This document shows, piece after piece, positions 18,445 to 47,499 of a stretch of DNA of 64,000 bases. A program made the position numbers and the translations under genes. The notes below the pieces were generated by a model. The model was not told where the DNA came from. It did no database searches and saw nothing but the letters and a program-made list of their open reading frames with translations. Each line of letters begins with the position of its first letter. Positions within the stretch are counted from its first letter, which is position 1. Source of the DNA: Xestospongia muta (lineage: Eukaryota; Porifera; Demospongiae; Haplosclerida; Petrosiidae). The stretch lies in NCBI GenBank assembly GCA_963693285.1, contig OY848917.1:16368192-16432191 (forward strand), given 5' to 3'.

Positions 18445-20281
18445 CTACTTTTCTTTGTTTATAATGGTATGTTGTGGTCTTTCTACCATTTTGTTTCTTA
18501 TGACTACAGACATTACATTCATGCTGTGATGGCTTTCCACTTGAACGAGGTGGTATTTGCCAAGGAAACGATGCTCATGGAGGAATGCATCTGGAGGGAG
18601 TCGTGGAGAAGATGCAGATGAAGCAAGATCAATACTGGCTCTGGTGACCATTTGTGTTGCTAGCTTTATTTGAAAGTGGATATGGCTCATATCCTTTTCT
18701 GTTTGAGTAGACATTTGATACAGGATGTTGGCATTCACAATAGTTAAGCCTATCAGGAGGAAGGTTGCTCGTTTATACCATTTCACTGTCCTGTGGTTGA
18801 AGCTGTAGTATGAAAGTAGATCACGTTTATCTACTCCACCCATAAAGGTGTTGTACCTATCAACCATTAGTGGCTTCTCTACATTTTCTCTTCCTGTAGA
18901 TGATAATCATGTTCTGCGAGTTTTCTTTACCATACTGCTATCATGGACTCTGCTAAGAATGGTTATGAGCCATTTATCTTTCCATTGCAAGCCAAGTACG
19001 CCATTCTCTAGGTTCTTTGTTCTTACTTCTCCTTTCTTCAATCCCTTTCTTTTCTCTCCAGTTTGTCCTTTACCTTTTGCTTTTGATTTCCATTCTAGAG
19101 GTATACGTTTTCTATCTACATGGGTTGTACCACATGCTCCCAAACCTTTCAGCTTCATATCTACAAACAGCAACAGGCTGATATAATAATTGTCCATGTA
19201 TATATGGTGTCCTGCTTTCTTTAGTGACTCAAGTAGTGTCATTACAATACCATGTGTACAGTTTTGTTCTCTCCAACATCTAACATATCATCCTTTCCTA
19301 CAAAGTAAGTAAACATTATACATGTACAATAGTCAACCCAATATTACTTGATATGTACCTACCTGCATACAGAGTCCAATTGTAAGTATAACCTTTTTTG
19401 AGTCAGCTAAAGAAAATGCTTTTAGTCCTTGTTTGTTTGATCTTTTAGGCATGTATTGAAGAAACCAAATTCTGCCCTTGAAGCTAACAATGGTCTTATC
19501 AATGTAGAGATCATGTCCAGAATTATAACTAGTTTGAAAGTTACTAATCAGTGATGTAAGAAGGGGACGTATATTATATAATGGATCATATCCTTGTTCA
19601 CCTTTTTGTTTTTGGCCTTTCTTGTCATTTATGTGTAGAAACTTCAAAATTAGGCTGAAACGATCCCTTGACATTACACAAGAGAAGGTGACTGTACTAA
19701 AAGGCCAGTACTGTGCCCAGTAATCTTCTAATTTGAGGTAGTGGATTATTCCTATTATTATTACCAGTCAGAGCAAAAATTGTAGCATTTCTGTTGCTGT
19801 ATGCATCTTCTATTTCCAATAGTTTAAGTGAGATCTGTGTGAAACCTCTGTGTGCTCTTCAAAGTTTTGCTGGGCATACAAATTTGTTTGGTCAACCATT
19901 TCTTCTATTATCTCTGCTGTAACAAGAGTTTGTCAAAAAATCAATTGGTGTTTTATCTGTGATATCTTCTGTTCCTTCACATTCAACAACAAAGTCTGGG
20001 ATATCATCTGCTGCTGATGCACTACTCAGAGAGATGTGTTTTGTTGCACTGATTTTAATTTCATCACCATACACTATTTCCATTTATTATTTCAGTTTCT
20101 ACATCAAAATCATTGCTATCATAATATTCATCATCAATTTCAGTCACTTCCATTACATCAATCATTACCCACTTCATCACCATCACTATTGTATAAATCA
20201 TCATCAGCTCTGTTGTGCAATCCCATTACTTGCATGACTTCATCATCACTGATATAGCCATCAAACATGTAGTAACTGTTT
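18445..20281 (-). pseudogene. piggyBac-type transposase, degenerate
   Basis: Reading right to left, an acidic N-terminal region with ISDDEVMQVMG lies at about 20270-19900. A segment MSRDRFSLILKFLHINDKK...LYIDKTIVSFKGR...YMPKRSNKQG follows (19674-19333), then GHHIYMDNYYIS...GACGTTHVDRKRIP (19242-18907) and DRYNTFMGGVDKRD...KWYKRATF (18867-18445). These are the ordered landmarks of the piggyBac DDD core, and the aspartates of YIDK and YMDN are kept. The three parts lie in different frames with stops between them, so the gene is inactive as it stands. Terminal repeats and TTAA target sites were not resolved. Confidence 0.9.
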
Positions 20282-20736: not shown

Positions 20737-20754
20737 ATGAACCAGCAGGAAATG
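20737..20754 (+). other. Proposed first coding exon (MNQQEM)
   Basis: ATG at 20737 opens six codons that end at a perfect donor GTAAGT. Phase 0 matches the acceptor at 23360, giving MNQQEM followed by NDILIKCVEKGD, a normal ankyrin N-cap. It was chosen because no in-frame ATG precedes the motif in exon 2 and the donor is ideal. A different upstream exon cannot be excluded. Confidence 0.5.
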
Positions 20755-23700
20755 GTAAGTAAATTATAGTCCTATTGTTTTATATTATCCTGTCAAAAAT
20801 AAAAGTATCAAATCCACCATGGATGGTTAGAAATCACTATCTTAGATAGTGGGTAGATCGCCCTATGGACATCAGAGTAGTCCCCAATATATAACCAATC
20901 ATGTTATAGCTGTTGTTGTTTTACTATTTGTATTAGTAGTTGTGTCTAACTGTGTAATTCATTACATCCTAAGTAATGTTCAACCTAACTATTCCCGTAA
21001 GAGCCTTTGTTATGTATATGTAACATTGCTAAAGTTTGACGTGATAAAACAGGTTTACTGCAAGTGCTACTTTTCTTCAGAACTTTATTTATAGCTTCAG
21101 CTATTGTACTAGTTTAAGTAGACTACCTTGCCATATCAGAGTTCATACATTATATTTGTCCAGATGTATGTGGTATAGATTAGATCTAAGACCAGCCTAG
21201 TTTACATAGCATTAACCTTTCCACCAACTATCAATGCCCTGTCAGGCTAGTTATGCTTATACCTAGATAAACTTATTAGAAGATGGTCAAAATAGTAATA
21301 TAATATTATGCTAAAGTCCAGCAAAATGTAACAATTAAGTTATAAGTGGATGTTGTCAACTAAATAATCAAAGACGAAATGTACAATTTGAGGCCTATCA
21401 ATATGTTGTTCACGAAATGTTTGTGATTGCCAGACATATGTAATATCTCAAGCAGTTTTGGATGGATTTTATGTACAAGTTGTTGTGTGTCTACTTGCCT
21501 TGTTTTATTATATTGTTGTATGGGACTTTTAAAGTCAATGAATAAATTTAGTCTTCATAGAGTAACCACTGATATACAGGTTCTGCTTCTACAAATCTCT
21601 TCAAATTAGGTGCGAGTGGTCAATGCTTGGAGCTTTTGTAAAACATCTTTGAGCAATATCATAGCTTTTCTAATTCTATAGTATTCATACTTGCCAAAAT
21701 ACAGTCCCTTACAACAACAACAGTACCATCAAAATAACCTTAAGGTTTTTTGCAATTGTTATCTGTTTCTACCATCACTGCAGTTAAAATAAAAGTTAAA
21801 AATAGTGAGAAGATGTGGGTATGCCTCCACTGCATGGTCAGCCTTAAAAAGTATCTACTGGTGTAATTTCTTGCTTTCATAAAACATGACAATAGCACTA
21901 AATAGCCAAACTGCTTCTGCTCTGTTATACATTTTGAGTAATAGCCTGAAGTATCTAATTACTTTAAGTAATTGTAGTAGATATTATCAGGCATTAATGT
22001 AAACAGTGATATCATATAAAGTAGGAACTACTCATGCATATGTGATATGAGTAGGTACTACTATACAGATAGTCATGTACAATATAGTTATAAATTAATA
22101 GATATCATTAAGTGGCAAATGTATAATACAGTACAAGATGGAGAGTAGGAACTAATATAAATGTACAAGGCTCTATAGGATACTATGAGTATAAATGTTA
22201 TCATAATATAAGCAAAATAGTTGTCTTAAATCTACAAACACTAATTACCAGTATATACCAGACATGAATTCACATTATAGTTGTAGTTTATGAAAATTCA
22301 TATAAAAAAGGTGTGGTATTAATGTTAGCATGATCCCATAATAAAGACCTGTCTATACAATCTAATTGATGTAATAAATATGGCTACTTAATATGTTGTT
22401 TTACCATAAGTTTTGGAATTTTTTGGAGCACAAATTTATATAAATAAATGTTCATTTATTTCGTTTTGAGGAATATGAGTATGATAAACACAAAGAAATT
22501 ATGATTCTTTGGTTACAAGCTTTTTTGTCATCTCTAACAAACCTATTGGCAATGGAAGTTCCCAGGGAAATCAATTATACAAAATGGAAGTTCTAGTCTA
22601 ATTAGTATAATTAACTTTCCACACTTATAGCATAAAGGAAGACATCTTTTGTGAATGACCATATAAGAGAATATATAATTATATTCATAACAAGTTAACT
22701 ATATTCATAATTAATCTTTGTCTTTGAAGTTTTTCTTTAAAAATGTATCTTTGCATTGTGAGTAGTCACTTCAATAACTCAGTATTGCTATGTGGAATTA
22801 CCTTGAAAGTTGAAACATAGAATGAAGTCAAATACCATTGATATAAAGTTGTACAAAAGATATAGAGTTAAATATTAGACAAGTTATGCTATGAGTATCA
22901 TTAACAACATGGTACCTCCATCTAAAATAATAAATTATGTATGACAGTTCTTAAAACATGGATTTATGGGATTTTTGAATTAATGACTCGAAAATTTAAA
23001 ATACATACATGATAATCATGTCCATACTGTTTTTAGACATCAAGTAATTATAGAACATCATATAGAATACCAGTAAAGTTTTTGCAAGAATTTATTGATG
23101 ATGTAATGATGTAAACCTGTTTGTTTTTAGTCTAAAATATAACACTAAGTCAGAGAATGGCACAGTATCAAACATGTTCTCTTAAGACTGTATACACTAA
23201 CTTTTATCACCAAGTAATTAAGTAATTTTTATACTTTAAATATCACTGAAGTAAAGTGACTAACAAGTTGTTGGTAATAGTTTTAATGTTATTTAAGTTT
23301 GTAAAGTCAGATCATTCATTATTTACTTGTTACATTTAAAGTTTTTGTTATTATTATAGAATGACATTCTAATTAAATGTGTTGAGAAAGGAGATTTATC
23401 AGGAGTAAAAAATGCTCTGTCAAGAGGAGCCGACATAAATGCTACAAATCAAGTAAGTCTATTTCATTTATTATACAAGGGAATATATATATAATATTTT
23501 TATAAATGAAGCAACCTGTCTGATTTAGTTTGTTTGAATATAAAAAATATCATCAAATCCTTGTTTCCATATTAATATTAACTTTGGGTCCACCTCCAAT
23601 ATTGCCTAAGCAATGAGTACTTACTGGCCTCATTTATTACCAGATACTATAATATATATGTTTTTGTAATAGAATATATTAGTACATTAATTTTACAGTT

Positions 23701-26700
23701 GATACTTTGTTTTTATAATAGGGTATATGGGCAGCTCTTCATTATGCAAGTTATGAAGGACATACAGACATTGTTGAAGTATTAGTCAACTATGGTGCTA
23801 ATATCAATGTTGTTACTGAGGTAATTCAAATCATGAGAATAAGTATGTTTTACTCTTTTTTCTTATATTTTGCTCCCACATTTATGGTGATGTGAATACT
23901 TGTCATTTCTATGTGTCATTCACATTTTTGTAGCGAGTAAGTGTGATATACTGCAATACAACTTCAAGTTTAGTATATAAAATGGTTTTATTTTGTTTTT
24001 TTTCTTATATTTTGCTTTCATATTTATGATGATGTGATTACTTGTTGTCTTTTTGTGTCATTACCAATATCATAGAGAGTAAGTGTTTTATAATGTAATA
24101 TAACTTTTACGTTTAGTGTATACAATGGTGTTATTTTGTTTTCTTTCTTATATTTTGCTCCCATATTTATGATGATGTGATTACATGTTGTCTTTATGTG
24201 TCATTACTAATACCATAGCCAGTAAGTGTTATATAATGTAATATAACATCTAAGTATAGTGTGGACAATGGTGTTATTTGTTGTTTTCTTACATTTTTCC
24301 CATGTTTATGGTGATGTGATTACTTGTTGTCTTTTTATGTGTCATTACCAATATCATAGCTGGTAAGTATTATATAATGTAATACAACTTGTAAGTTTAG
24401 TCTATATAATGGTGTTATTTTGTTTTCTTTTTTATATTTTGTTCCCTTATTTATGGTGATGTGATAACATGTTATCTTTATGTGTCATTTACAATATTAT
24501 AGCTGGTAAGTCTTACATAATGTAATATAACTTCTAAGTTTAGTATATACAATGGTGTTATTTTGTATTCTTTCTTATATTATCTCCCATATTTATGGTG
24601 ATGTGATTACTTGTTGTCTTTATGTGTCATTACCAATATCATAGTCGGTAAGTGTTATATGTAATATAACTTCTAAGTTTAGTGTATACAATGGTGTTAT
24701 TTTGTATTCTTTCTTATTTTTTGCTTCCATATTTATGATGATGTGATTACATGTTGTCTTTATGTGTCATTACCAATATCATAGTCTGTAAGTGTTATAT
24801 AATGTAATATAACTTCTAAGTTTAGTGTATACAATGGTGTTATTTTGTTTTCTTTCTTATATTTTGCTTCCATATTTATGGTGATGTAATTACATGTTGT
24901 CTTTATGTGTCTTGCTGATATTATAGTCAGTAAGTGATATATAATGTAATATAACTTCTAAATTTAGTATGCACTATGATGTTATTATGTTTTCTTTGTT
25001 ATATTTTCCTCTTATATTTATGGTGATATGATTACTTGTTGTCTTTATGTGTCATTTATAATGTTATAGCAAGTAATTGCGACATAATTAAATACAATAT
25101 CTAAGTTTACTATATACAATGGTGTTATTTTTTTATATTTTCCTCTCATATTTGTGGTGATGTGATTACTTTTTGTCTCTGTGTCATTACCAATATCGAA
25201 GGCGGTAAGTGTTATATAATGTAATATAACTTCTACGTTTAGTGTATACAATGGTGTTATTTTGTTTTCTTTTTTATATTATGCTCTCATATTTATGGTG
25301 ATGTGATTACTTGTTGACTTTATGTGTCATTACCAATAACATAGCTGGTAAATGTTATATAATGTAATATAACTTCTATGTTTAGTGAATACAATGGTGT
25401 TATTTTGTTTTCTTTCTTATATTTTGCTTCCATATTTATGGTGATGTAATTACATGTTGTCTTTATGTGTCTTGCTGATATTATAGTCAGTAAGTGATAT
25501 ATAATGTAATATAACTTCTAAATTTAGTATGCACTATGATGTTATTATGTTTTCTTTGTTATATTTTCCTCTTATATTTATGGTGATATGATTACTTGTT
25601 GTCTTTATGTGTCATTTATAATGTTATAGCAAGAAATTGTGACATAATGAAATACAACTTCTAAGTTTACTATATACAATGGTGTTATTTTTTTATATTT
25701 TCCTCTCATATTTATGGTTTGTGATTACTTGTTGTCTTTATGTGTCTATACCAATATCACAGCTGGTAAGTGTTATATAATGTAATATAACTTCTATGTT
25801 TAGTGTATACAATGGTGTTATTTTGCTTTCTTTCTTATATTATGCTCTCATATTTATGGTGATGTAATTACTTGTTGTCTTTATGTGTCATTACCAATAA
25901 CATAGCTTGTAAGTGTTATATAATGTAATATAACTTCTAAGTTTAGTGAATACAATGGTGTTATTTTGTTTTCTTTCTTATATTTTGTTTCCATATTTAT
26001 GGTTATGTGATTACTTGTTGTCTTTATGTGTCATTATCTATATCATAGTCGGTAAGTATTATATAATGGAATAGAACTTCTAAGTTTCATGTATACAATG
26101 GTGTTATTTTGTTTTCTTTCTTATATTTTGTTTCCATATTTATGGTGATGTGATTACTTGTTGTCTTTATGTGTCTATGCCAATATCACAGCTGGTAAGT
26201 GTTATATAATGTAATATAACTTCTATGTTTAGTGTATACAATGGTGTTATTTTGAATTCTTTCTTATTTTTTGCTCTCATATTTGTGGTGATGTAATTAC
26301 TTCTTGTCTCTATGTGGACGTCATTACCAATATCATAGGCGGTAAGTGTTATATAATGTAATATAACTTCTACATTTAGTGTATACAATGGTGTTATTTT
26401 GTTTTCTTTCTTATATTTTGTTCCCATATTTATGGTGATGTGATTACTTGTTGTCTCTGTCTGTCTTTTACAATATCATAGGAGGTAAGTGTTATATAAT
26501 GTTATATAACCTCTAAGTTTAGTAACCTCTAAGTTTGGTGAATACAATGGTGTTATTTTGTATTCTTTATTATATTTTGTTCCCATATTTATGGTGATGT
26601 GATTACTTGTTGTCTTTATGTGTCACTTACAATATTATAGCAATAAGTGTTATATAATGTAATATAACTTCTATGTTTAGTGTATACAATGGTGTTATTT

Positions 26701-29700
26701 TGAATTCTTTCTTATTTTTTGCTCTCATATTTGTGGTGATGTAATTACTTCTTGTCTCTATGTGGACGTCATTACCAATATCATAGGCGGTAAGTGTTAT
26801 ATAATGTAATATAACTTCTACATTTAGTGTATACAATGGTGTTATTTTTTCTTTCTTATATTTTGTTCCCATATTTATGGTGATGTGATTACTTGTTGTC
26901 TCTGTCTGTCTTTTACAATATCATAGGAGGTAAGTGTTATATAATGTTATATAACCTCTAAGTTTAGTAACCTCTAAGTTTAGTGAATACAATGGTGTTA
27001 TTTTGTATTCTTTATTATATTTTGTTCCCATATTTATGGTGATGTGATTACTTGTTGTCTTTATGTGTCACTTACAATATTATAGCAATAAGTGTTATAT
27101 AATGAAATATAACTTCTAAGTTTAGTGTATACAATGGTGTTTTTTTTTCTTATATTTTGCTGCCACATTATGGTCATGGGATTGCTTATCATCTCTATGT
27201 GTCATTTACATTATCACAGTTGGTAAGTATTATATACTATTGTATAACATTTAATACTACGTTAACTTCTTAGTGGATACTGATTTTTTGGAGATTTGGG
27301 CAAAAGGCAAGGGTTAAGCTTTATTGGCTATTAATATTTTTTTCTTAAGGTCTGACTGTAGAAACCATGCTGTAAGCAAAATCTATAAGCCTATGGAAGG
27401 AGTCAACCTGTTGTTTCATAACATTATGTAATATGGAATGTCTGATTTTTAAATGCCAAGTTGTAGTTTGTGAGAACTGTATCATGGAAATTATTTAGCA
27501 TTTGGTGGGTGTGTTGCAAACCCTGCTATAATAGCATAACACTGGTTACATATATGTTTAGGAGTAAGAATCATTCATAAATCCCATGGCCCTGCAGACT
27601 AAGCCAAAATGGCTCAGTTATCCCAAATGACACTCCTTTTCATCTAATGAATCATTTATAGTAATTAATATCATAACAAATAATAAGGAGAGAGCGTTGA
27701 CCACTGAGTTGTAGTTGTCTTGTCAAGAGCCTAGTTATAGTTGTAAGCTAACATGTGTCCATTCTAATTTGTCAGAAAGTCTGCTATTTTAATGGCCTAA
27801 CAATTTTTGGTAGAGGTAAGAATATCTGCTTTTGCTGTTATTGTTGCTGTTCCAGTTCTGAAGCTGCAACCAGCATTGTGGTTTGAATCTGCAAGAGGTG
27901 TTACTATGAATGCTTCTTTGTCAATGGAGTACCACTTCTAAATGACCACCCATTTGTCCTGAGATACTGAACTGTACATTAGTTTAGAAATAGCTCTGTA
28001 TTAGATAATCTAATATGGATATTCACTCCCTTTCCTAGCTAATTATATTTTCAAACTTTCAAGTAGACTTTTAAAACTCAATTATGACAAACCAGATTCA
28101 GCATTGGCCAAATAATTGAGATGTAAGAATGCTTATTCCTGGTTGAACTAAATGCAAGTGAGGGAAAGATAATATTTTCCTTAGATTAAAGAGGCTTAGT
28201 AAAATTTGGGTGTGATGGATTGTGGCCAAATATGTAAGGAGCTAGACCACTTTTGTGACCACTTTTCCCTAAATAGAGGACAATAACACAGCAATGTCAA
28301 CGACATAGGTATGGAAGATGTGATAACATAGATATCACAAAATGCTAACAACTTCCTCATAGTGCAATTTATACCAGTTAGTAGATGTGTTTCACATAGT
28401 TTAATGTAGTGATGAACAATGGGTCCAGTTTGGTGATGTCCATTCCAAGCTGGAGGGCAAGAGGAGTAGCAACAATAAATACACTATTGAGGTTGGGTTT
28501 GTGTCTGCCTGAGAGAATTGAGAAAAGAATTGGTTTTTATTTCTAACATCAGTTCAGTTAGATTAGTTTTCCTGCAATATGTGTTAACATAGAGACAATC
28601 AAAAATGGTCTCAAAGAAAAACAAACGTCTTAAAAATCCACAATGCATCAATATTATTTGGGAAGACTTGGAGTGATGGAGGCAGACTACCACTTCATTG
28701 TCACAGTTGGTAGGACTGTCTTCTCCGAAGCCATTGTTATACCCAAATGAGCACTCTCCTCTAAGGTCGTTGTCAGATCTTGTTGACAACTGCTTGATTG
28801 TGGGTGACCATCTGGAAGGTATCTCATACTATTGTGTATATTACTAATGCTGTATGTAGCCCAACGTACAGTCAATATAAGGAGGCTTCCCCTTCCATTT
28901 GACCCTTAGCAAGTGCTTGTTTTCTAATGAATAGAAGCCTGCCTATACACTGATTTGCCTTTCCCAAACTTCTGCATTGAGCTAGCAAGTCAGTCAACTA
29001 GGTATGATACAGGAAGGATTTTGATAGATCAATACCATCGTCCACACTCCAACCTTCAGTGTAGGACAAATTTGTAATGAGTCTCCATTTTCTGGTGTAT
29101 ATTTTGGGATAGCAACTTGCATGATTTATATGAGGAAACCTTCTAGGTTGAATAGTCACACAATTGTGCTTAATGTTACTTCCTATTGCAAGTATAATCC
29201 TCAATTATATGGGGTTGCTGTAGTGCTGAGATCATGTTTTTTCTGCTAATTTTATGTGCTGCTCATGATTAAAATAAGTCCTAAAACTTAGAACATAATT
29301 TTCTAGCTGTGGAGTTATAATCTGCTCATTCTCTTTCCAATAATGGAATCAGGAGTTTAACTGACTTCAGCTGCTTTGTCTAGGATAGTGTATTTACTGC
29401 AAGTTGACAAGTTGCTAATGTTTGAGAGTCAATCTATTTAATATAGACAGTTCTGACTGCACTACCTCTATATTTCAAACATAACCAATAAATAAGGTCA
29501 TCAACATACTGTCATAACATATAGTGAAGACATCAAAAATGCCTTCTTTGGTAATGAAATAGCTTTTTATAGCCATAGTAGCAACATAGTAACATATAGA
29601 AACAGTACAATAATAAATGTAAATAACAAACAGCATATTGTTACACTGAGTACCACCAACAGTTCCTTGCTGTGGACGTAAATAGTAATGAGCCCGGTAT

Positions 29701-32700: not shown

Positions 32701-35700
32701 TTAACAAAGTAAGTGTTCATGTACATATGTTATATAACAAACCTTGTATAACAAACATTATTTTATTAGTATTATTAGTCTAATTTGACAGTTGAAGGTT
32801 TCTTTATTATTACAACAGGGAGGATGTGGAGTTCTTCATTATGCAAGTTATGGAGGATATACAGACATCGTTCAAATATTACTTAATTATAATGCTGATA
32901 TCAATATTATTACAAAGGTAATTTAGATTAAAAAAATAAAGTTTGCAATACTGTACTTAAGTATCATTACAACTTTCTTATTGTTGGATATTCTGGAATA
33001 CCTCCTTATTGTCTGGAACACATGGAACAATTTCAAGTTCCCAGCTACTTTCCTGTTATCACTTTAGTCACTAACAATAATTATTAATTATTATTAATAA
33101 TTACTAATAATAATAAAAATTGAAACCACATACATTGTTGAAAATGAAACCACATACATTGCCTTCTTGTACACTACAACTTCTTCTATAGTTATCAAAA
33201 CATGTTTCATAAGAAAATGGAGTAAACAAGTAAATAAAAACATTTATAAAAATCAAGTAAATATAGAATGATTAAATCAGTCCAATACAAAGGTTGCAAA
33301 CATGATAATAAGGGTGGAAATTGCATCATCTTTACATAATAACAGGCATATAGTGCAACAATATGTTATTGGTATTGTTTGATTGATGTAAATGTTTGTG
33401 AATATCCTTAATTGTTAGTGCCACCTGTGCTATTATGTAGGATGATGCAATTACCATCTCTACTATCTTGTATGTATTCTTAGTGATACTAGCCATTTCT
33501 ACATTTGCTTCATTTTTAGAAAATATTTTTAGTTACTTGTTAATTAATAAAATTTAATTACAACATTAACATAGCCCATGTTAATTTGTTTTTTTTCAGT
33601 ATTAAATGTCATGGAATTTCTACTTCACCATCCTATAAATTTAATGAATATCTCATACAACCTGCATGTTATTTAGCACTGTACCTCTTCTTATAAATAA
33701 CGAGAACATGTGAGACAACTTTCTCAGTAAATGTTCAACAATATTACAATTTTAATGATTGTTTGTCAAGCTTGGTTCCTGAAATAGAGCACCAGGGTAG
33801 GTACCCCTTGTGTAACAGCAAGCAGACCATGGTTCCATACTGTAAAAATGATGGTTGATTCAACCATCATTTGGTTATACAGGTTGCAATTGCAAACTGT
33901 TTTTTTGTTGAAAAAGTAATCATAATTCTGTTTTCATTACTAATGTACTACTGTTTATGTAGCTATAAAATCATCAATCTCAGAGTACATCAGTAATCAA
34001 AATAGTATTATGTTTACATTTTAGATATACAACCTGTATAACCATTTATTAGTTAATTCAACCAATCAATTTTCACAGTCTTGTATATATTCTTTATGAT
34101 ACTAGGCATTTCTACATTACCTTTGCTTCATTTTTAGAAAATGTTTTTAGTTACTTGTAAATTAATAAAGTTTAATTACAACTTTAACATAGGTCATATT
34201 AATTTTTTTTCCTTTTAGTATTAAATGTCATGGAATTTCTACTTCACTTTTCTATAAATTTAATGTAACCAATTATATGGTATTAGAGAAAACATAGACT
34301 ACTATACCTGAATTTAACAAATTTATGTACTACAATTGTATTGCAAGTACTGCCATACACCTTGAAGCCATGGTATATATATATATAATATATATAATAT
34401 TTGTGTCCACTATGAATGAGATTAAATTGCCTCCTTTAACTGCTGACACATATCGTAACCATTGAATTTCTTTAACCCTAACTGTGAATGCTACAATGAA
34501 GGGTTTGTGACAATGCTAAAAGACTATCATTAGCTTTGTTCTCTTTTCTGGGATTCTATAGTTATTGTATTCCACAGACACTGCAACTAATTCTGCAGTC
34601 TTTGTAGGTCTAGGCAATCTTAATTTCTCAAGCACTCACAAAAATGGATACTCCGTTTTAATCTATATTTCCTCAAAAATGAAGAAAATGATTAACATGT
34701 TTTGGGTTTTTTTCATTATCTCATAATACAAAGAAGTAACCTTCATTATGAAAACTTCTGGTATTAAATAGACAATGTGGTAGACACCTAATGGTGCCAA
34801 ATAAGTTAATTGCTACTTCAAACTCAATAAAATATGATGTATGAAATGAAATTAGAAGGTCAAGAAAGCAGAATCTTAAAGATAAAGTTATAGTATGTCC
34901 ATTAGCCACACTTTAAATTTGCTTAATAATTATGAATATTAGAATCACATCACATTGTTGATTGCTGATTTTTAGTGTCCTCTCTCAAGACTTTAGTAGA
35001 CAAGTGCGAACTTTAAAGACAACTGTTTATCTTTGGTAGATTGCTAATTTATTCTTTTCTTGACAGTTAAACATTTTCATGTATAATTTCAGTCTCATTC
35101 TATATGAGTTAACTAGTTGTTAAATGTACAATCATTTAAATGTTGCTCCTTATTATTTTAAAGAAATATTTAACTATTTACAATGCAATGTTATTATCTA
35201 TTGTTTGTTTCTTTTTTCCACATTTATGGTGATATGAATACTTGTTATCTGAACATGTCTTTACAATATTAGTTGGTAAGTATGATATAATGTAGTAGAA
35301 TTTATAAGTCTATGGAATGAAGTTTGTCATTTTGATTACTCTGTTGTTTGTTTGTTTGTTTTCTATATTTTTACTGCTGCGATTTTTTCTCATCTGGATT
35401 TGTTCTTTGCAACGTAATAGTCTGTAAGTGTGATATAATGTTATCTAATTTCTAAGTTTTTTAATGCAACATTATCATTTTGTTTACTCTATTCCTTTTT
35501 TGTTTCCATATTTATGGTGCTGAAATTTTTTTTGCTATTAATAATGTGTCTTTTATAATATAATAGTGGGTAAGTGTGCTATAATGTGGTATATTATCTA
35601 AGTGTATGAATGCAGTGTTATCATTTGTTTACTCTATTGTTTGTTTGTTTGTTTCCACATTTATGGTGTTGTGTTTACTTGTCATCTGAATGTGTTCCTT

Positions 35701-38700
35701 ACATTATAATAGTCAGTAAGTGTGATATAATATAGTTTAATTTCTAAGTGTATTCAATGCAAAGTTATCATTTGTTTACACTATATCCTTTTTCTTTCCA
35801 CATTTATGGCACTGTGGTTACTTTTTATTAAATCCTCTTTACAATATAATAGTGGGTGAGTGTTCTATAATGTAGTATAATTTCTAAGTGTATGGAATGA
35901 AGTGTAATCATTTTATTTACTCTATTGTTTGATTGTTTGTTTTCACATTTATGGTGCTGTGTTTACTTGTCATTTGAATATGTTCCTTACATTATAATAG
36001 TGGGTAAGTGTGATATAATATAGTATAATTTCTAGGTTTGTTCAATTTAACATTGTCATTTTATATGCTATTTTGGTTTCTACTTTTATGGTACTGTGAT
36101 TACTTGTCATTTTGTTTACTCTATTGTCTTGGTTCCTACTTTTATACTGCTGCTGTGACTACTACTTACTTAATTGTGTCTCTTGCAATGTAATAGTTGG
36201 TAAGTGTGATGTAATGTACACTCTGTTTATGATGAGTCAAACAGCTAACTTATTGTTATAACTAAGACTAGGAATAATCTAGAAATAGATTGTTACACTA
36301 TTTAATAGGTCTTGCATCTGTTCAATTTTATTTTAAAACGTGAGTACTAGCATTCAGAAACATAGTGAACTAGAAATTTCATATAAAGTGAATCGTCTAA
36401 CTCACATTTCATTATGACATAAGATCACAGATAATTTGTATATTATTAATGAACACATACACACAAAGCATTCTCTAACTGCAGCTAAAAAGTATAGAAA
36501 CAATAGAAAATGACTTTTGTAGCAAAAGTAAGAATGATAAAGAGGAACGCAACAGCCAAAAGCTATAGGAAGAAGTTTTATGAGCTATGACTTGTAAACT
36601 ACACAGACATGACATACTCATTATTGAAATTACATAAGCCACCACCAACTCACCTTGAACAGAGTGTAGTAGAATTTTTAAATGTATGTGATGCAATGTT
36701 GTCATTCCATTAACTTTTGTTTCCACATTTATGTTGCTGTGATTATTTATCATTGATTGTATCCTTTACAATACAATAGCCGGTAAGTGTGATATATTAT
36801 AGTGTAATTTCTAATTGTATTTAATACAATGTTTACATTTAATTTACTCTATTGTTTGTTTTCACATTAACAGTGTTATGATTGTTTGTCATCTGAAATG
36901 TGTTCTTTACAATTGTGATATAATATAAGTTAATGTATTAGTCAATGCAATGTTGTCATTGTAAAATATTTATTTACAAATGTTAAACTAATAATTTTCA
37001 AGTTTTTATAACATTTGTTGTCATTACGTAAATGTTAATGTTCTCTAATACCTTTAATGTTTTTCACACTTTTATTGGTTTTAAGCTTTGTCATGATTTA
37101 TCATGTTTAGCCAATTTTAGAATGGGCTTATCATTCTACTCAGAATTATCATTTGTTTAAAATGATTTTAGTATTGCTATGAAATTGTTATATTGCATAC
37201 ATCATTAGTAATGGATCTTTTTTATTGGTGTACATTATAACAATGATAATGATAGCATAACTACCAACATATTATATTGCCAGGAGCCAATAACATGAAA
37301 TGAGTAAAGAGTCTGAAACTATGTGGTATATGATCGAGTAAAATCATCACGTGATCCCATCAATAATTTGACCACACCTTGTCCAATCTTAAATGTACAT
37401 TTTACATGCACTCTGCAGTATAGATTTACACTCGGCACTGCAGCGAGGTTAAGTACTTTAGTGCATTTTTATTATTTAATTTATTAAGTATTTATACTGT
37501 GAGTAATTAAGGGTACATGGCTTCTTAAAAGAGATTATGTTGCTATACTTGTGCTGTTATGTTGTTAACATAGTGTAGAGACTTGAAGAACATTTTGTAT
37601 TTATTTGAGAACTTGTAGCATTGACAATAGTTGTACATGTATTCTGCTTTTATAGTAAAGAAGCTATTTGTTGAATTTGTTTTTTTAAGAAAGATAAATA
37701 AGTACTTGTCTAAAGCCTTTTTAAAAAAAAGTGTTTGTAAACTGTCTTTGTAAGGAGTGCTAGTTCTTCCTCTATTCTACTAAGTAGATAATTTTTATTA
37801 TGATCATTGTGAAGTTGTCAAATTTATATTTATATTGTCATGTTGATATTTGTGCCAAAATATGTCTATTGTGATATAATGGCTATGTATATTTGTGTAC
37901 TTAGAGTGTATTGATAACATTGTTGTAAGAGTTATTGAGAGGAGTAGTTTGTTTAGTATAAGAGTAGTTGATTTGTCTCATACTTTGTAATGTTGTCTAT
38001 GTTTATAATGTTACTACTGTACTCATGTAATACATACATGTATATAACAATACTAGTATAGATAATTTACTGATGTTACGTATATTTTCTTAGTTTATGT
38101 TAATGTGGTTATTATAATATATATTTAGGAGGGAACTACTCCAGTCATATTAGCAGCAGAGAGGGGACACAAAGATATTGTTTTGATTTTAATCCAGAAA
38201 GGAGCTAATCTAGACCTTGTTAATGCAGTAAGTGTTCATGTATATATGTTATATAACAAAACTTGTATAACTGAAGATGAAATGTGGCTGTATTTTGAGG
38301 AAAAAGAAATATGGCAAATTAGTGATTATCACAATGGAAACAGCTTCTTTATAAAATTAGAATAAATGTTACAATTTTCATAAAATTTTCAATGATCAAT
38401 TCAATAACAAATAAATGGTTACTAGCTGATTGCTAATAACCTTGTCAGTCATAGCCTCAGAAAAGAGTGAATGACATTTTTTATACCTCAGAAGATATAT
38501 AAGGATATAATTGACCTGAAATAGAGCTATCTGATTAGTCAATTAAGGCAGAGCATTGTACAAATACATGTAAATCAGAGTTTACAAGAACATGAAAGTG
38601 CCTACAGGTTGTATATAGGTCATGTTTAACCATCCCAACAGATGTGTTATAAAATCACTGACGAGTTATAGACCACAAATGATATTAGTGATTCACCACA

Positions 38701-38912
38701 GATGAATTATAATTATTATTAATAAATAATAACAAGTAAAAACATTGTCAAACCTCACTAAGATGTAAAACCAGGGTGCCATTACTTTTGTAGTAACAAT
38801 ATTAGACGTCCATAATATGTAAGTTGTTATTATTTAGTTATGCAATCATCAATAACATCAAATTTACATTTGATGTGGCTATACTGTTTAACATATAGCT
38901 ATCATGCCCAGA

Positions 38913-38967
<55 letters not shown>

Positions 38968-41900
38968 ACACAGTGTGCATGTGTATGGATATTTATGTAT
39001 TGTGTAAATTAATGATATAATACAATTAAAGAAAATGTTGAAGTACCATATACTTAGTAACTTTGGAGGTAGAAAATATTGAGAAATTTCATGAATTGCT
39101 TTTCAATTGCCAAAATCTTATCCTCAATACTTTAATTAGTGGTATGGTAGTAGGTAGAAGATATCATTATCCTATGTTAATTTCTTCAAACTCTAGTATG
39201 TATCAATTCACTAATATTTTCTAACAACATAGTATAGTGTTTATTTTATATCATATATCATAACAATAGTAGATGTAGTATATAGTGTGAGTTAGTAATA
39301 TAATATAATTGAAGTAAATGTTGAAGTACAATATATTTAGCAATTTGGAGGGGAAAAGTATTGAGAAATTTGGTGAATTGTATTTCAATCATTAACCTTT
39401 TTTTCTTGGAATAGTTTGATTGATAGTAGACTGAATAAGTCATTTGACTAAGTTAACTTCTTCAATTTTTTTAATATCAATTCTATAATATTTTCTCCCT
39501 CCAAAGTAATCTACTATGTGGTAGTCAATGTGAAATCTAATAATTTACATTTTTAGTGTAAGGAGACAGCTATACATTGGGCCACACGTAACAGTCACAC
39601 TGAAATAGTCCAATTACTTTTACAATATAATGCTGATCCTAATATTTGTAACAAGGTTAGTGTGTGTTGTCTACAAATATTGTGTATGTACTATATAGTG
39701 TTAAACATACACCATATTTCATATTGTGAGTTAACAATATCATTGATGTTAATTTGTGCTAGTTAATGTGTAACATAATTATTATTATAATTATTCATTT
39801 CTCTAGGATCAGATTACAGCTCTACATTTGGCCTTAAATAGCAGTCACACTGAGATAGTGAGCTTACTCCTACAATACAATGGAGATCCTAATATATGTA
39901 ACAAGGTTAGTGTGTGTTGTGTTTAGATATTATAGTATGTACTACATAGTTTTAAGTCTATATCGTAGTGTATAGTGTAATTTGTCTAGGATCAGATGAC
40001 AGCTCTACATTCGGTCTCAAGTGATGGTCATACTGAGCTAGCCCAGTTACTCTTACATTATCATGCTGATCCTAATATTTGTGACAAGGTTAGTGTGTAT
40101 TATATATAGATATTGTCGTATGTACTACATATTCTTAAGTTTATATCATAGTGCACAATATAAATTTGTCTAGGATCAGATGACAGCTCTACATTGGGCC
40201 TCAAGCAATAATCACACTGAGATAGTCCAGTTACTCCTGCAGTATAATGCAGATCCTAATATTTGTGACAAGGTCAGTCTATCACTTCTTTTATTCTAAA
40301 TCTACATTAACACAGGATGATAATACTGCATTGCATATTGCCTGTAAAAAGGGTCATATAAATATTATACAATCATTGTTATCTCATGGAGCAGATATGA
40401 CTATTAAGAATAATGACAGTAACACTCCATTAGATGAATGTCAAGCCACAAGCAAGGATAAAATTGCTAGTCTTGTCTCTAAATACAATCCAAAACGAGG
40501 TGAGATATTAAACAACAACTATATAGTACTCCTACTTGTTTGATTTGTTATTATTTAGTTTTGGAAGATGTGTCTAAATGGAATATTGAATACCTCAATG
40601 AAGAGCAGGTTTTTGAGAAACATGAATATGGAATCATGTTTATCATTCCACCCTCATCACTGGAAGTAGGGCAAGAAGTCAAAACAGAAGTCAATGTAGT
40701 TGTACCAGAAGAATCAGAGATCATCCTCCCTCCCGATGTTGAGCTTGTCAGCTGTTTCTACAAGATTGAAACAAGAGGAAAATTCTCCGCACCTATTGAG
40801 CTTCATCTCCAACACAATGTTCAGCTCAGATCACAACAGGAAAGTCAACAGCTAGCTTTTATCAGAGCTAAAGGACTGCCACCTTACAGGTTTGAGCTGT
40901 TAGCAACTAAATCAGACCAAGTATTCTGGCCTTATGACAATTCTGGTGTCGTAGGAATCTCTGATTTCTCTTTTGTTGCCATTGTCATCAAAAAGATAAA
41001 GACTGCCCTTTTTCAGCCATCTCAAAGTTATATAATGACGGTCTTTTTCAAAGAGGTGATGAACTTTTGTTGGGAATTACAAGCAGTAGTCACAAAAAAT
41101 CTTGGACCTTTTCTTGAGGTATGAAGACATAACAAAAAGAGAATTACAATACTATATTACCACTATATACATGTTCTTTTGTCTATATTAGAGAGTAAAC
41201 ACAGAGAAACGTTTTGAAAATTGGAAAAGGATAGACCCAGTTACTATTTTGGATCCTGACATTAATGAAGTTACAATTGCTAATGAGTATTATGACATTA
41301 AGCCATTGATGAATCCATTTCAAGTAAAGTCCTAGTTGATGTCATGAAGTTAGATTTTGTATCGTTAAAGGTTTCTAGGAAACTCATTGATCAATGTCAA
41401 CCAGACACTGCTGTACTACCTTACTTAAAATTTAGAGTCACTCTCAAAGATGAGAGGAAACTCACTGACTTAGAGCTCACTTTTAATGGAATGAGTGAAC
41501 AAATGAGTTTGGTAATTGCTTGTTATGAATTGCAACAAATACAGGAGACAACAAGTGAGTGACATTAAAAATAGAATATACTCATGTTTTATATTAATAT
41601 CAGCATAAAATATTGCCTGAGCTTTTCCAAAATATTGAAGTAATATAAAGAAATGTTTGCTCATTTTGCTGATACAGCTCACCCTACCAGCACTCTTTCC
41701 ATTAATACTCCTACTACTGACAGCATGCCTACTTCTGCTCCTACTACTGGCAGTATGCCTACTTCCACCAGTAGTACTCCTTCTATCTATACACAGTTAT
41801 CATATCCATTAGGAATATCTGATGAATTATTATGTGAGTTATATAATATCCAAGTTAATGGATAATTTGGTCATTGAATTAATTGAATCACCTTTCACAT

Positions 41901-42872
41901 TTTCTCATTATTAGGTAAAGAGCCCAAGAAAAAACACCTGATGACACTACTTCATGAAATTAAGTACATGTGGAATACTATTGGTGAACAACTTGAAGTG
42001 CGTTATTGTGATATAAAGTCTGCTGAATATAATGTGGCATATGACCATACCACAAAACTCTCAGAAGTCCTTCAGGTGTGGATAGACAAGAGAACATGTG
42101 AAGTGTCTTGGAGAATGATCATCACTGTTGTGAAGGAGCCACCTATAGAACACAATGTAGTAGCTGAAAAGATATATAAATTTTTAGCAAGATCTGATAT
42201 CAGGAATGAATATCTCTCTTCTTATCAACCTGGTAAAGTTAGAAAATATTTATTTAACAATTTCTCTAATGTTCCTTTATAGGTCAAGTGATTACTACTT
42301 TTAATTCTCCACCTCCAGTTCAAACAAAACCTACTGAAATAAAAGGTATAACAATATAGCTATAATGTTGTATGACTCGTTTACATGTTTGTTATATTAC
42401 AGTTCACCCTATTAATCCTACTATTCCACTTCCAATTTCACCAAAACCAGCTAAAAAGAACGGTACCTACAACTAAATAGACTCTAAGATACTTACATTA
42501 TAGGTCAACCTTTATCTGGTCCCCAACCTCCAAATACACCACAACTTGGTGAGAAAGTAGATATGCAACAACTAGACAAATTTCTTTCTATAACATGAAC
42601 ATATTTGAAAGAATTTAAATATTTAATTTCTTTCCAGTCAAAGTAGTAGATGAAATGGAACAAGAAGCTCCCTTACAGTCAACCAATCCTATTGGAGTAA
42701 GTTAATTAGTTATTATGATTTATTACTATAACATTATGTGACATAATTTCATAAAACTCTTGTATATTGTAGTAACATGTACCACAAAATAGTTATGTAT
42801 AAATGCAAATATTCTCTGAAATTCAAGTGCATGCACAATAAATAAAATTTTGTGCTCATCTATCTTGATATC

Positions 42873-42941
<69 letters not shown>

Positions 42942-44344
42942 GCAAATGTGTTTATTAATATTGTGAATGCATCTCTCTATTAGTTTGCTGCTCATTGTCT
43001 TCATAAACAAACTAAACAGTGGGAGGAAAAAGATAATGATTTGATTGTAGTTGCTAAACGTATGGCCAGACTGATAATGCAAATGTCAAAGTTTGCCCAG
43101 TAAGTATTATAGAGTGAAATGTATACTTCAATTGTAGTTTATAAAAATTTTATGGAACTAAATATCACAAGTATATATAACTGTAGATAATAGTCTATAT
43201 TTAGCATTTCAACTAGTACTGTACATTGAGTGATGTATTAATGTATTAATTTCAGTTTGATAATAATTATGACAACCTCCCCTCTATAGAGATGAAGAAG
43301 GTGATGTAAATTCTATAGAAGACTTTATCCAAACAGCTAATCTTATTGTCAAAGACAGTAAGGAGGTTGTTAAAATAGCTACACAAGTTACTGAGCTATG
43401 TACAGACTCACAGCTGAAAAATGTGAGTTACAGAGTTTGATAACAAAAATATTCATACATAGAGTACCTTTAATGTGTGCATGTGTGTGTAATAAAATTA
43501 TAATTAGTTGACACTTCTTATATGAATTGATTGAAACTGTAATATTTATTCACACTTGACTTTGGTCATTTAAAAACTTCTCTTTAATTCTATTTAATAC
43601 ATTCCTTTACAGACTCTGTCACAAGCTCTTGATGGTATTCCAACTTATGCCACACAACTAAAAATAAATGTTGGTGTCCATGCAAAAAGAGATGGTAAGC
43701 TGTAAACTCTAAGTGGAGTATTTGTACTCAACCATTGATAGAATTCAGAAAACAGAAGTAAACTGATTTAACCAAGACAATTTTCCCTTTCATTAATAAT
43801 AAGATTAAGAGAGTAACAAAAGCAACTAATAGTAACACATAGTTTTGTAAGGCTTTAAATAATTAGAATTGGTCTAAAAATGTTAGTATATAAATTCATA
43901 TAGTCATCATGTTATACAAGTGATTCTACAATTGCAAGAGTAAACTATATGATGACTTATTTGATATATTGTGTCTTAAAGAGTAACTAAAGTACTATGT
44001 TCCACACAGTGGGTACCCCCATGATTAAAAGCTGTTGTCCATATTATAATAGTGTGGCTATATTATTATTGTATAATATTAACCTTTCTTCAGCCAGTTT
44101 ATACTACACATGTACATATATGTATCTTACATATAGTATTACAATGTAACTTATCCACCTTGTTTAATTCCTTGATTTTATAGACCTAGAGGGAGATACA
44201 GAAGCTACTAGTTTGTTGACAGTTAATGCTGAGAATCTCATGACTGCTGTTGGTGTAGTACTTGACACCACAGAGAGTGCTTTAATAAAAGTACCTCCAG
44301 ATGCTCGTGTACATTTGACTGGCCTAAGCTGGGTTAAAAAATAA
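20737..44344 (+). CDS. Ankyrin - ZU5-like - Death-like - vinculin-tail protein, 24 exons
   Basis: Exons: 20737-20754, 23360-23452, 23722-23820, 32610-32708, 32819-32917, 38129-38227, 39557-39655, 39807-39905, 39990-40088, 40174-40272, 40316-40499, 40559-41118, 41192-41323, 41371-41554, 41678-41833, 41915-42232, 42283-42345, 42403-42462, 42504-42548, 42638-42696, 42984-43099, 43290-43422, 43613-43694, 44184-44344. They sum to 3156 nt (1051 residues plus TAA) and every junction is GT-AG with matching phase. Ankyrin repeats span ~7-363, ZU5-like/UPA-like ~364-650, a Ser/Thr/Pro linker ~655-706, Death-like ~707-812, Pro-rich ~813-888 and vinculin tail ~889-1051. No signal peptide or membrane segment is seen, so it is presumably a cytosolic scaffold that could tie Death-fold partners to actin. 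Weak points are the 18-nt first exon and the 41324-41370 intron. The long introns could hide further ankyrin exons. Confidence 0.8.
20755..23359 (+). other. Intron 1; no gene seen
   Basis: 2.6 kb of A+T-rich sequence bounded by GTAAGT and TTATAG. Short chance ORFs (20849-21094, 21427-21609) show no known motif. Confidence 0.45.
23360..23820 (+). other. Ankyrin exons 2 and 3
   Basis: Exon 23360-23452 (31 codons) encodes the capping half-repeat with NALSRGADINA. Exon 23722-23820 (33 codons) encodes a full repeat with AALHYASYEGHTDIVEVLV. Both are phase 0 at both ends. The next exon in the model is almost 9 kb away, past the 143-bp array. Confidence 0.85.
23860..27240 (+). repeat. Tandem array, ~143-bp unit, ~23 copies, inside the ankyrin gene
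   Basis: Units have a TTATTTTGTTTTCTTTCTTA tract, 'atatttatggtgatgtgatta', 'ttgtctttatgtgtcatta', then ATCATAG, three bases, GTAAGTGTTATATAATG. Donor motifs at 24222, 24363, 24506 and 24648 give a period of 141-143. There are higher-order repeats: a variant with 'cttgctgatattatagtcag' recurs 560 bp apart (24912 and 25472), and a variant with 'ctctgtctgtcttttaca' recurs ~458 bp apart (26454 and 26912). The minus-strand ORFs here are only translations of the repeat. Confidence 0.95.
27241..28440 (+). other. Intronic non-coding
   Basis: Unique A+T-rich sequence between the array and the retroelement relic. No gene seen. Confidence 0.45.
28480..29230 (-). mobile_element. Reverse-transcriptase relic, DIRS-like
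   Basis: On the minus strand, CYPKIYTRKWRLITNLSYTE then WSVDDGIDLSKSF (29204-28998) matches the RT region of DIRS/tyrosine-recombinase retrotransposons (K-W-R-L-I-T-x-L-S-Y, then V-N-D-G-I-D). Further on, KVKWKGKP-like text (LLRVKWKGKPPYIDCTLGY, near 28900-28850) and a HLGITMASEKT stretch (near 28740) keep the same order. Stops and frameshifts interrupt it throughout. The family call rests on recognised motifs only, and no termini were found. Confidence 0.6.
29231..30490 (+). repeat. Intronic sequence with a ~220-bp direct repeat (29950-30330)
   Basis: The stretch with 'tgtatgctatgttaa' (29965) and 'gaatggatttgtagctgtga' (30056) recurs at 30217 and 30279. Otherwise non-coding. Its two copies end in the same 'acattcttcactaac' text. 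Confidence 0.65.
30500..31640 (+). repeat. Tandem array, ~110-150-bp units, intronic
   Basis: About nine units of the same family as positions 1-720. Cores such as ATAATAG-GAG-GTGAGT (30600), ATAATAG-CTG-GTAAGT (30726), ATAATAG-CCA-GTAAGT (30878 and 31122) and ATAG-TGG-GTAAGT (31255 and 31404) keep the three-base spacing. It lies about 1 kb 5' of the ankyrin exon at 32610. Confidence 0.85.
32610..32917 (+). other. Ankyrin exons 4 and 5
   Basis: Exon 32610-32708 (TPVMLAANKGHKDIVLIL, GANLNIVNK) and exon 32819-32917 (GVLHYASYGGYTDIVQILL, ADINIITK) are each exactly 33 codons, phase 0, with TTTAG/AACAG acceptors and GTAAGT/GTAATT donors. They are the intact paralogues of the damaged pair at 998-1287. 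Confidence 0.9.
32918..35199 (+). other. Intronic non-coding, with duplicated blocks
   Basis: 33240-33770 parallels 1610-2150. The block with 'attaaatgtcatggaatttc' appears twice here (33600 and 34221) as well as at 1978. A TATA-rich run lies at 34374-34400. No coding exon seen. Confidence 0.55.
35200..36960 (+). repeat. Tandem array, ~140-bp units, intronic
   Basis: About ten to twelve units with 'tttccacatttatggtgctgtg', 'catctgaatgtgtt' and ATAATAG, three bases, GTAAGTGTGATATAATG (for example 35422, 35570, 35716, 36003, 36199 and 36783). The unit region at 36240-36660 is interrupted by unique sequence. Confidence 0.85.
36961..38128 (+). other. Intronic non-coding
   Basis: No exon found. 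Near 37430-37465 there is a short segment, 'cggcactgcagcgaggttaa' followed by 'tactttagtgc', whose reverse complement is close to 63205-63235. A short dispersed element is possible. Confidence 0.45.
38129..38227 (+). other. Ankyrin exon 6
   Basis: 33 codons: TPVILAAERGHKDIVLILI, then GANLDLVNA. The acceptor is ATTTAG and the donor GTAAGT. It closely matches the exon at 32610, so the A-type exon has been duplicated within the gene. Confidence 0.9.
38228..39556 (+). repeat. Intron with (TA)n at ~38917-38962 and a ~287-bp direct repeat
   Basis: A pure TA microsatellite of about 23 units lies at 38917-38962. The block 'aaatgttgaagtac...aatattgagaaatt' at 39030-39090 recurs at 39316-39370. No coding sequence seen. 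Confidence 0.75.
39557..40499 (+). other. Ankyrin exons 7-11
   Basis: Four near-identical 99-nt exons (39557, 39807, 39990, 40174) encode repeats with AIHWATRNSHTEIVQLLLQ / ALHLALNSSHTEIVSLLLQ patterns, each ending DPNIC(N/D)K and each followed by a short intron with GTTAGT or GTCAGT. The fifth exon (40316-40499) adds ALHIACKKGHINIIQSLL and a C-terminal capping helix pair (TPLDECQATSKDKIASLV). This is a recent tandem amplification of one exon. Confidence 0.95.
40559..41323 (+). other. ZU5-like and UPA-like region
   Basis: Exon 40559-41118 opens with LEDVSKWNIEYLNEEQ. It then has EYGIMFIIPPSSLE...PPDVELVSCFYKI...GKFSAPIELHLQHNVQL, the landmarks of a ZU5 domain (buried strands, then 'P-x-x-L-x-L-x-H'). 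The second half (FWPYDNSGVVGISDFSFVAI and on) fits the beta-rich UPA-type domain that follows ZU5 in ankyrins, UNC5 and PIDD. Exon 41192-41323 continues it. ZU5-UPA pairs commonly precede a Death domain, as here. The domain call is by eye and moderately secure. Confidence 0.7.
41324..41370 (+). other. 47-base intron or frameshift site
   Basis: Read straight through, the frame hits TAG eleven bases after 41323. A GT-AG intron from GTAAAG to TTAAAG keeps phase 0 (Q|VSRKLIDQ) but has a weak acceptor. Alternatively, the stretch LVDVMKLDFVSLK in the +1 frame is true coding sequence and one base is missing near 41332. The choice affects whether the gene is intact. Confidence 0.5.
41371..42232 (+). 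other. Linker and Death-like domain exons
   Basis: 41371-41554 completes the UPA-like part (LKFRVTLKDERKL, then ELTFNGMSE). 41678-41833 is a Ser/Thr/Pro-rich linker with a repeated TPTT.SMPTS pattern. 41915-42232 encodes a helical domain (W-N-T-I-G-E-Q-L near its start, LSEVLQVWIDKR, VSWRMIITVV, VAEKIYKFLA) with the spacing of a Death-superfamily fold. The domain lies in one symmetric phase 1-1 exon. Confidence 0.7.
42283..42696 (+). other. Proline-rich linker, four mini-exons
   Basis: Exons of 63, 60, 45 and 59 nt (42283-42345, 42403-42462, 42504-42548, 42638-42696) encode SPPPVQTKP, PINPTIPLPISPKP, GPQPPNTPQ and an acidic VVDEMEQEAP. The first three begin and end in phase 1, so each can be skipped without a frame change. 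A proline-rich strap ahead of a vinculin tail mirrors the order in vinculin itself. Confidence 0.8.
42872..42936. repeat. (CA)n microsatellite in intron
   Basis: An uninterrupted CA run of about 31 units within the intron before the vinculin-tail exons. It accounts for a long Cys/Val minus-strand ORF, which is not a gene. Confidence 0.98.
42984..44344 (+). other. Vinculin/alpha-catenin tail domain exons
   Basis: Four exons (42984-43099, 43290-43422, 43613-43694, 44184-44344). The order AAHCLHKQTKQW, DNDLIVVAKRMARLIMQMS, IQTANLIVKDSKEVVKIA, TELCTDSQLKN, GIPTYATQLKI, SLLTVNAENLM, VVLDTTESALIKV and LSWVKK follows the helices of the vinculin family tail, including the AKRMA, QLKI and NAxNLM signatures. 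This five-helix bundle binds F-actin and acidic lipids in vinculin. The chain stops at WVKK, just where vinculin goes on with a short C-terminal arm. Confidence 0.9.
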
Positions 44345-47438: not shown

Positions 47439-47499
47439 CTGGAATATAAAGATAATATAATATTATATTGTAGTAATATTGCTGACATCAGCAATATTA

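Follow-up and report, generated by a model that had tools for sequence, protein, structure and literature searches.

A sponge gene family that would join an ankyrin-ZU5-Death scaffold to a vinculin-type tail, with arrays of codon-sized exon-like units in its introns

A 64,000-nucleotide stretch of the Xestospongia muta genome (hereafter the window; C1:16368192-16432191 in a genome of 158 Mb and 28 contigs) carries ankyrin, ZU5 and Death-like exons followed on the same strand by the exons of a vinculin tail. The question raised by this locus is whether these exons form one chimeric gene or two adjacent genes, and what such a chimera would do. Genomic comparison indicates that the gene is one member of a large family with dozens of copies in this genome, which an earlier note on the window had not foreseen.

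A model of 24 exons was assembled on the plus strand between 20737 and 44344. All introns are GT-AG, and a single reading frame of 1051 residues runs to a stop at 44344, reproducing the number of in-frame exons and the protein length given in the earlier note. Exons 2-10 are ankyrin exons of 93 or 99 nucleotides (nt), in phase 0 throughout. The region upstream of exon 1 recurs, together with the exon and its donor, at two nearby places (81% and 99% identical). The difficult place in the model was 41192-41554, where the frame changes; a single exon in place of exons 13 and 14 was rejected, as it has no open frame, and a 47-nt intron (41324-41370) solved the problem. Paralogs keep the reading frames on either side of this intron, and some have stops within it, which an intron would tolerate. 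The gene has other introns that are also small, down to 41 and 43 nt.

To identify the domains, the model was scanned with Pfam in three pieces (549, 47 and 481 amino acids, the last containing the start of exon 14 in unspliced form and a single incorrect residue where exons 14 and 15 meet). Strap and tail together matched Pfam Vinculin with 135 bits (expectation value (E) 4e-39; profile positions 618-847 of 852). The vinculin head was not detected, as there was no Vinculin match beyond profile positions 618-847 in the pieces scanned. When the tail was used to search the PDB, vinculins were found with E values from 1e-33 to 2e-22, the best being VIN1 (PDB 6bfi, E 1e-33) in an alignment reaching the last W-V/W-x-K of the chain. 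An alpha-catenin origin of the tail was rejected, since alpha-catenins matched at 1e-12 or weaker. These matches bear out the proline strap and complete vinculin-type tail of the initial prediction. Residues I997 and V1001 of chicken vinculin, which are F-actin contacts, are aligned here with I and V. From its sequence correspondence with vinculin the tail is predicted to bind F-actin and acidic lipids, and its identity makes it plausible that Death signaling is coupled to F-actin.

The ankyrin part has about ten repeats, with Pfam scores up to 369 bits. ZU5 and Death can be assigned from the family rows taken together, not from the window copy alone. With a limit of E up to 1 the ZU5 profile matched all 19 family rows (best 3.6e-6) and the Death profile 11 of 17 (best 2.4e-5), and a profile made from the 17 Death rows found FADD in the PDB with E 3e-4, upholding the Death-like domain that had been proposed. 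The Death alignment excludes one copy with a weak match (L038), and in two others (L034 and L037) a Death match was absent from the stretches examined. The segment made up of the last part of exon 12 together with exons 13 and 14 is well conserved among paralogs and sits at the UPA position. Of the "ZU5/UPA-like block" in the earlier note the ZU5 portion therefore stands, whereas the UPA portion is a conserved block recognized by neither Pfam nor the PDB. The Pfam check recommended there recovered the ankyrin and vinculin parts in the model, left ZU5 and Death below the cut-off in the window copy and did not recover UPA. NACHT, the hallmark of NOD-like receptors, was absent from the Pfam matches of the three pieces. 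We take F|S to be the self-cleavage motif of FIIND/PIDD-type ZU5 domains. Because F-S stands at the cleavage position in only 6 of 13 copies (as DFS, window copy included; the others have DSC, DFC, DFT, DYS, DFF or HFC), the family as a whole is not expected to cleave itself in the manner of PIDD or NLRP1.

Whether tail and scaffold belong together was judged from the other copies in the genome. A search with the ZU5 exon gave at least 150 scored matches, the closest with 91, 90 and 89% identity, and a search with Pfam Vinculin gave at least 54 hits, many of them to the first tail exon. Pairing took 83 of the 150 ZU5 matches; 39 of these were followed on their own strand, at a distance of 1.4-4.0 kb, by a Pfam vinculin hit, and the window tail as query produced tail matches for six more (at C8:3205149 by the last exon only). 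Since vinculin-tail exons thus follow at least 45 of the 83 ZU5 exons in the same orientation, one gene rather than two is the most likely structure. Fifteen vinculin hits were left unpaired. Two groups of six, at C13:2.88 Mb and C1:28.84-28.86 Mb, resemble genes of vinculin or alpha-catenin type; the other three are at C13:621261, C1:14780313 and C3:4330719. Additional sets of tail exons were seen a few kb past three members (C1:16671844-16673652, C1:17017085-17018893 and C1:22265921-22267378), as if the tail exons themselves duplicate. In the protein database the ZU5-to-tail query found one protein, P0001, which is 66% identical to it across 24% of its length, and the tail region as query found no match.

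Eight near and five divergent copies, of the at least 45, were examined from ZU5 to tail. Six of the near copies were flawless over exons 12-24, with AG and GT everywhere, the lengths of all exons preserved modulo 3, and no stop before the terminal one, which falls 0-2 codons from that of the window gene. The junction 42696|42984, which the initial prediction had singled out for checking, has an intact donor and acceptor in all eight, including a damaged copy (L010) that has lost part of the preceding exon. The divergent copies (on C1, C3, C4 and twice on C8) all keep the order ankyrin, ZU5, exons 13 and 14, Death, tail exons; their identity in exons 12-14 is 41-67%, and the aligned parts are free of stops. 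Recurrence of exons, order and phases in so many copies is more than chance. The proposal of a single chimeric gene is thus strongly supported by exon borders that recur in near paralogs and by an order that recurs in distant ones.

The history of the tail was considered on a tree built from 35 ZU5 sequences, in which tail-bearing copies stand on either side of the midpoint root and tail-less copies in several separate places; the tail label requires five changes, at least three of them forced by well-supported branches. The simplest history would be one gain of the tail before the radiation and several later losses, and some members do seem to be without a tail. In the 3 kb examined at L055 (C1:16350400-16353400) and at L054 (C1:16815300-16818300), no recognizable tail exons follow Death, apart from an end piece of the last one in L054. 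A vinculin-like gene at C1:28.84 Mb, matched exon by exon, is 58% identical to the window gene at the end of the strap and 62-74% identical in the four tail exons, suggesting that the tail was probably captured as the last exons of a vinculin gene located on this chromosome. This locus (L052, C1:28843500-28852500) holds two tandem sets of vinculin-like tail exons, the first being the one 62-74% identical to the chimeric tail, and more vinculin hits lie beyond it at C1:28858026-28859995.

We lean slightly towards the view that the window gene belongs to a large family of presumably cytosolic scaffold or receptor-like proteins built as ankyrin, ZU5, UPA-position block, linker, Death, strap and vinculin tail, with the following history and working. 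An ancestral ankyrin-ZU5-Death gene would have captured vinculin strap-and-tail exons before the family radiated, several copies losing the tail later. The ankyrin surface, possibly varied by codon-sized exons between two repeats, would bind a partner, and the ZU5 block would keep the protein closed. Upon release the Death domain could assemble with other Death proteins, and at the cell cortex the tail would anchor the complex to F-actin and acidic lipids or bundle it there. The tail of vinculin is covered by the head; in the chimera the ankyrin-ZU5 part may take over this role, or the tail may always be open.

Other explanations have to be set against this one. Some members show no tail among the matches listed, and the tail-exon hits at C1:14780313 and C3:4330719 have no listed ZU5 exon within 6 kb, as might be expected if an ankyrin-ZU5-Death gene and a free short vinculin-tail gene were adjacent and in frame by accident. 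However, in at least 45 of 83 copies the order and strand are the same and the spacing is similar, and 7 of 8 near copies have retained exon borders and phases across the junction. In addition, a stop immediately precedes the first tail exon in its frame, and the first Met of that exon is residue 27. Two separate genes are therefore highly improbable, and this explanation was rejected on the intact borders and frame of the near copies. Several further observations weigh against the chimeric scaffold as we read it. In the window copy ZU5 scored 18.8 bits against a cut-off of 21, and Death gave E 0.03 in its exon, below the Pfam cut-off, and no match at E up to 1 in the 481-residue piece. Pfam UPA matched none of five members, and the PDB held no credible relative of the block at that position. 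AlphaFold predictions were uninformative both for the Death exon alone (predicted local distance difference test score (pLDDT) 42.5) and for the ZU5 exon with one relative (pLDDT 40.1). One near copy (L020) has AA instead of AG before exon 17; among the divergent copies the strap was not matched in C4:6.78 and C8:3.19, nor exon 23 in C8:3.19. The tail-less label (13 copies) means absence among the matches listed, with only 2 of the 13 checked in sequence, and L054, so labelled, keeps an end piece of the last tail exon.

The remaining points of this kind also favor a mostly pseudogene array, in which copies decay under little constraint and the chimera is not made as a protein. The ratio of nonsynonymous to synonymous substitution (dN/dS; ratio of means over the 28 pairs of 8 sequences, L010 excluded) is moderate across the near copies: 0.42 in ZU5, 0.50 in Death, 0.59 in the tail, 0.74 in the strap, 0.85 in exons 13-14 and 0.88 in the linker. 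Introns of the near copies are nearly as similar (85-92%) as exons (89-94%), and the near copies are therefore young duplicates, recent duplication and gene conversion contributing to the pattern. In L010, exons 18-19, some of exon 20 and 29 bases of exon 24 are gone; decayed ankyrin pieces lie upstream in the window (998-1287 and 13073-13165), and some ZU5 matches contain stops. On the other hand, 7 of 8 near copies are free of internal stops over 13 exons and 6 are flawless, the five divergent copies are stop-free exon after exon in their aligned parts, and dN/dS is below 1 in every segment, so that wholesale decay appears improbable. A structural role is a stronger competitor, although we still consider it unlikely. 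Ankyrins have the order ANK-ZU5-UPA-Death and work as adaptors, and a vinculin tail is a cytoskeletal part; the protein could be an ankyrin-like adaptor between membrane proteins and cortical actin, with Death as a fold retained from ankyrin-type ancestors and not used in signaling. Against it, a large diversifying expansion would be characteristic of genes for recognition or immunity, not of structural adaptors (compare the expanded, Death-linked TRADD-N proteins of Amphimedon, PMC8195603).

The possible variation of the ankyrin surface comes from a second feature of the gene, which the earlier note had likewise not foreseen. Introns 3 and 5 hold, on the strand of the gene, tandem units made of an acceptor, three nucleotides and a donor, of the form AG-NNN-GT(A/G)A(G/A)T, 36 in all (20, 8 and 8). 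Unit length ranges from about 136 to 150 bp. The whole window has 69 such units, with further array places at 56050-59542, 34-690 and 13516-14678. From their sequence, the units look like rows of codon-sized exons. The variability of each column was ranked in two arrays of the window and in a third (L058) that lies upstream of the paralog L020, using acceptor-anchored units only (13, 19 and 53), so that the ranking is silent on acceptor conservation. The first two positions of the triplet ranked 1-3 among 138-140 columns and the third position 7-12, and the donor was nearly invariant. Because tandem homogenization should act on whole units, a hypervariable triplet inside a homogeneous unit would call for diversifying selection or a special mutation process.

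The strict pattern had 1296 matches genome-wide and 0 in the reversed control; the search may skip very common words, and control patterns returned hundreds of matches. None of the 1296 triplets was TAA, TAG or TGA. For TAG, the only stop for which an expectation was computed, the same units (NAG 159, TNG 294, NNG 660) predict about 71 under independence against 0 observed, and the chance of finding none is 0.0006 even with the sample reduced tenfold. A mere splice-site clash was rejected as the cause of the missing TAG, because AAG, CAG and GAG, which make up the 159, show that a second AG is tolerated there; TAA and TGA create shifted donor-like strings, so the objection may still apply to them. 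In the window, at C1:7.2 Mb, C2:1.72 Mb and C1:21.77 Mb the units follow the same type of ankyrin exon (ending NVVTE, NIVTK, DVVTE or NVVTK). In the window and at C1:7.2 Mb this exon has a phase-0 end; at C1:21.77 Mb the units start only 1.3 kb past it and are widely spaced. Of the two flanks examined, at C1:7.15 and 7.2 Mb, each comes from a separate array. The ankyrin exon was not found at L062, which has two units, or at L058, which lies on the same strand as L020.

Since no stop occurs among the strict units, the triplets may be read as codons, and single residues, one exon each, might be inserted or exchanged in the loop between two ankyrin repeats, which would amount to diversification by splicing in actin-tethered Death scaffolds and their ankyrin relatives. 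We hold the arguments for and against this proposal to be evenly balanced. Against it, the unit counts are uncorrected for duplication of whole blocks, a relaxed scan found one TGA unit at the edge of the L058 array, and some units have broken donors. A helical periodicity of the peptides that the arrays would encode was also rejected, hydrophobic moments being no higher than in shuffles, and a contiguous run of these codons in one protein is therefore not supported. The richness of the L058 array in Glu, Lys and Leu can come from A/T-rich codons ending in purine.

Table 1. Exons of the chimeric gene and arrays of codon-sized units (window positions)
Feature	Position	Strand	Basis
Exon 1, start codon (MNQQEM)	20737-20754	+	ATG, exon length and donor recur in L060 (99% identical) and L061 (81%)
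Exon 2, N-terminal ankyrin cap	23360-23452	+	Similar exons in L056, L063
Exon 3, ankyrin repeat, array A downstream	23722-23820	+	Similar exons precede array units in L056, L063, L064
Array A, intron 3	23859-27236	+	20 units fitting the pattern, mostly ~143 bp apart
Array B, intron 3	30600-31580	+	8 units, spacing less regular
Exon 4, ankyrin repeat	32610-32708	+	Pfam, exon model
Exon 5, ankyrin repeat	32819-32917	+	Pfam, exon model
Array C, intron 5	35197-36800	+	8 units, spacing less regular
Exon 6, ankyrin repeat	38129-38227	+	Pfam, exon model
Exons 7-11, ankyrin repeats	39557-39655, 39807-39905, 39990-40088, 40174-40272, 40316-40499	+	Pfam, exon model
Exon 12, ZU5 and start of next block	40559-41118	+	ZU5 profile (19/19 rows, E up to 1), paralogs
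Exons 13 and 14, conserved block at UPA position	41192-41323, 41371-41554	+	Kept in paralogs
Exon 15, Ser/Thr/Pro-rich linker	41678-41833	+	Exon model; highest dN/dS of all segments (0.88)
Exon 16, Death domain	41915-42232	+	Pfam family alignment, PDB profile search
Exons 17-20, proline-rich strap	42283-42345, 42403-42462, 42504-42548, 42638-42696	+	Strap end resembles the vinculin-like gene at C1:28.84 Mb
Exons 21-24, vinculin tail and stop	42984-43099, 43290-43422, 43613-43694, 44184-44344	+	Pfam, PDB, near and divergent copies

Elsewhere in the window, the pieces at 998-1287 and 13073-13165 are what is left of an upstream duplicate of the ankyrin part that has partly decayed. The first-exon copy with the 99% identical region (L060, C1:16356739) lies near decayed remnants and array units. 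On the minus strand, separate transposase pieces (18448-19767; Pfam DDE_Tnp_1_7, presumably piggyBac-type) stand just upstream of exon 1. A class 3 lipase-like frame (5873-6799, minus; Pfam Lipase_3, E 6e-21) has a 388-residue frame without Pfam match on its 5' side, and a short minus-strand frame at 62976-63239 encodes a TRAF-type zinc finger (E 7e-14). A duplicated gene piece occurs at 47213-47527 and 51612-51878 (minus strand), with RFIDNDLLLKYSKWVLDHDELKGVKIFIDRLGKDKG in both and no Pfam match. A comparison of the window with Rfam gave no match.

By carrying a vinculin tail, a Death-type scaffold would link a death or innate-immune module directly to the actin cortex in genetically encoded form. 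The dozens of diverging copies would be as expected of recognition genes, and the family offers testable material on how early animals wired cell-death signaling to the adhesion machinery. The codon-sized exons, if true, would be a new splicing route to protein diversity and a hard case for models of very short exon recognition. We know of no other case of rows of codon-sized exons. Neither such arrays nor an ankyrin-ZU5-Death-vinculin-tail protein were found reported in the literature searched, most subscription journals being outside the reach of the search. The candidate units would resemble microexons in having one codon between splice sites, as in the 3-nt exon of mouse Ncam cited in PMC8042270, but differ from them in that up to dozens stand in tandem in one intron, with a hypervariable codon.

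Among known proteins, ankyrins share with the window gene the order ankyrin repeats, ZU5, conserved block and Death. The window gene differs from ankyrins, UNC5 and PIDD1 in its unrecognized UPA, its approximately ten ankyrin repeats, the single ZU5 found and the C-terminal vinculin tail; to our knowledge none of these proteins has such a tail. As in the FIIND proteins NLRP1 and CARD8, a ZU5-type domain precedes a death-fold domain, and one of five members gave a faint FIIND match (E 0.013), but the F|S cleavage place is not conserved in the family. Three reports provide comparisons: Amphimedon has large expansions of TRADD-N proteins with Death-type domains, and fusions of TRADD-N to FIIND and UPA-ZU5 are described (PMC8195603, from which the word vinculin is absent), NACHT-ZU5 and NACHT-Ank architectures occur in early animals (PMC12909245), and Ephydatia has one vinculin homolog (PMC6820919). 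With vinculin itself the window gene shares the strap and the tail, whose exons resemble those of the vinculin-like gene in the same genome; it differs from vinculin in lacking the head, in place of which it has the ankyrin-ZU5-Death part.

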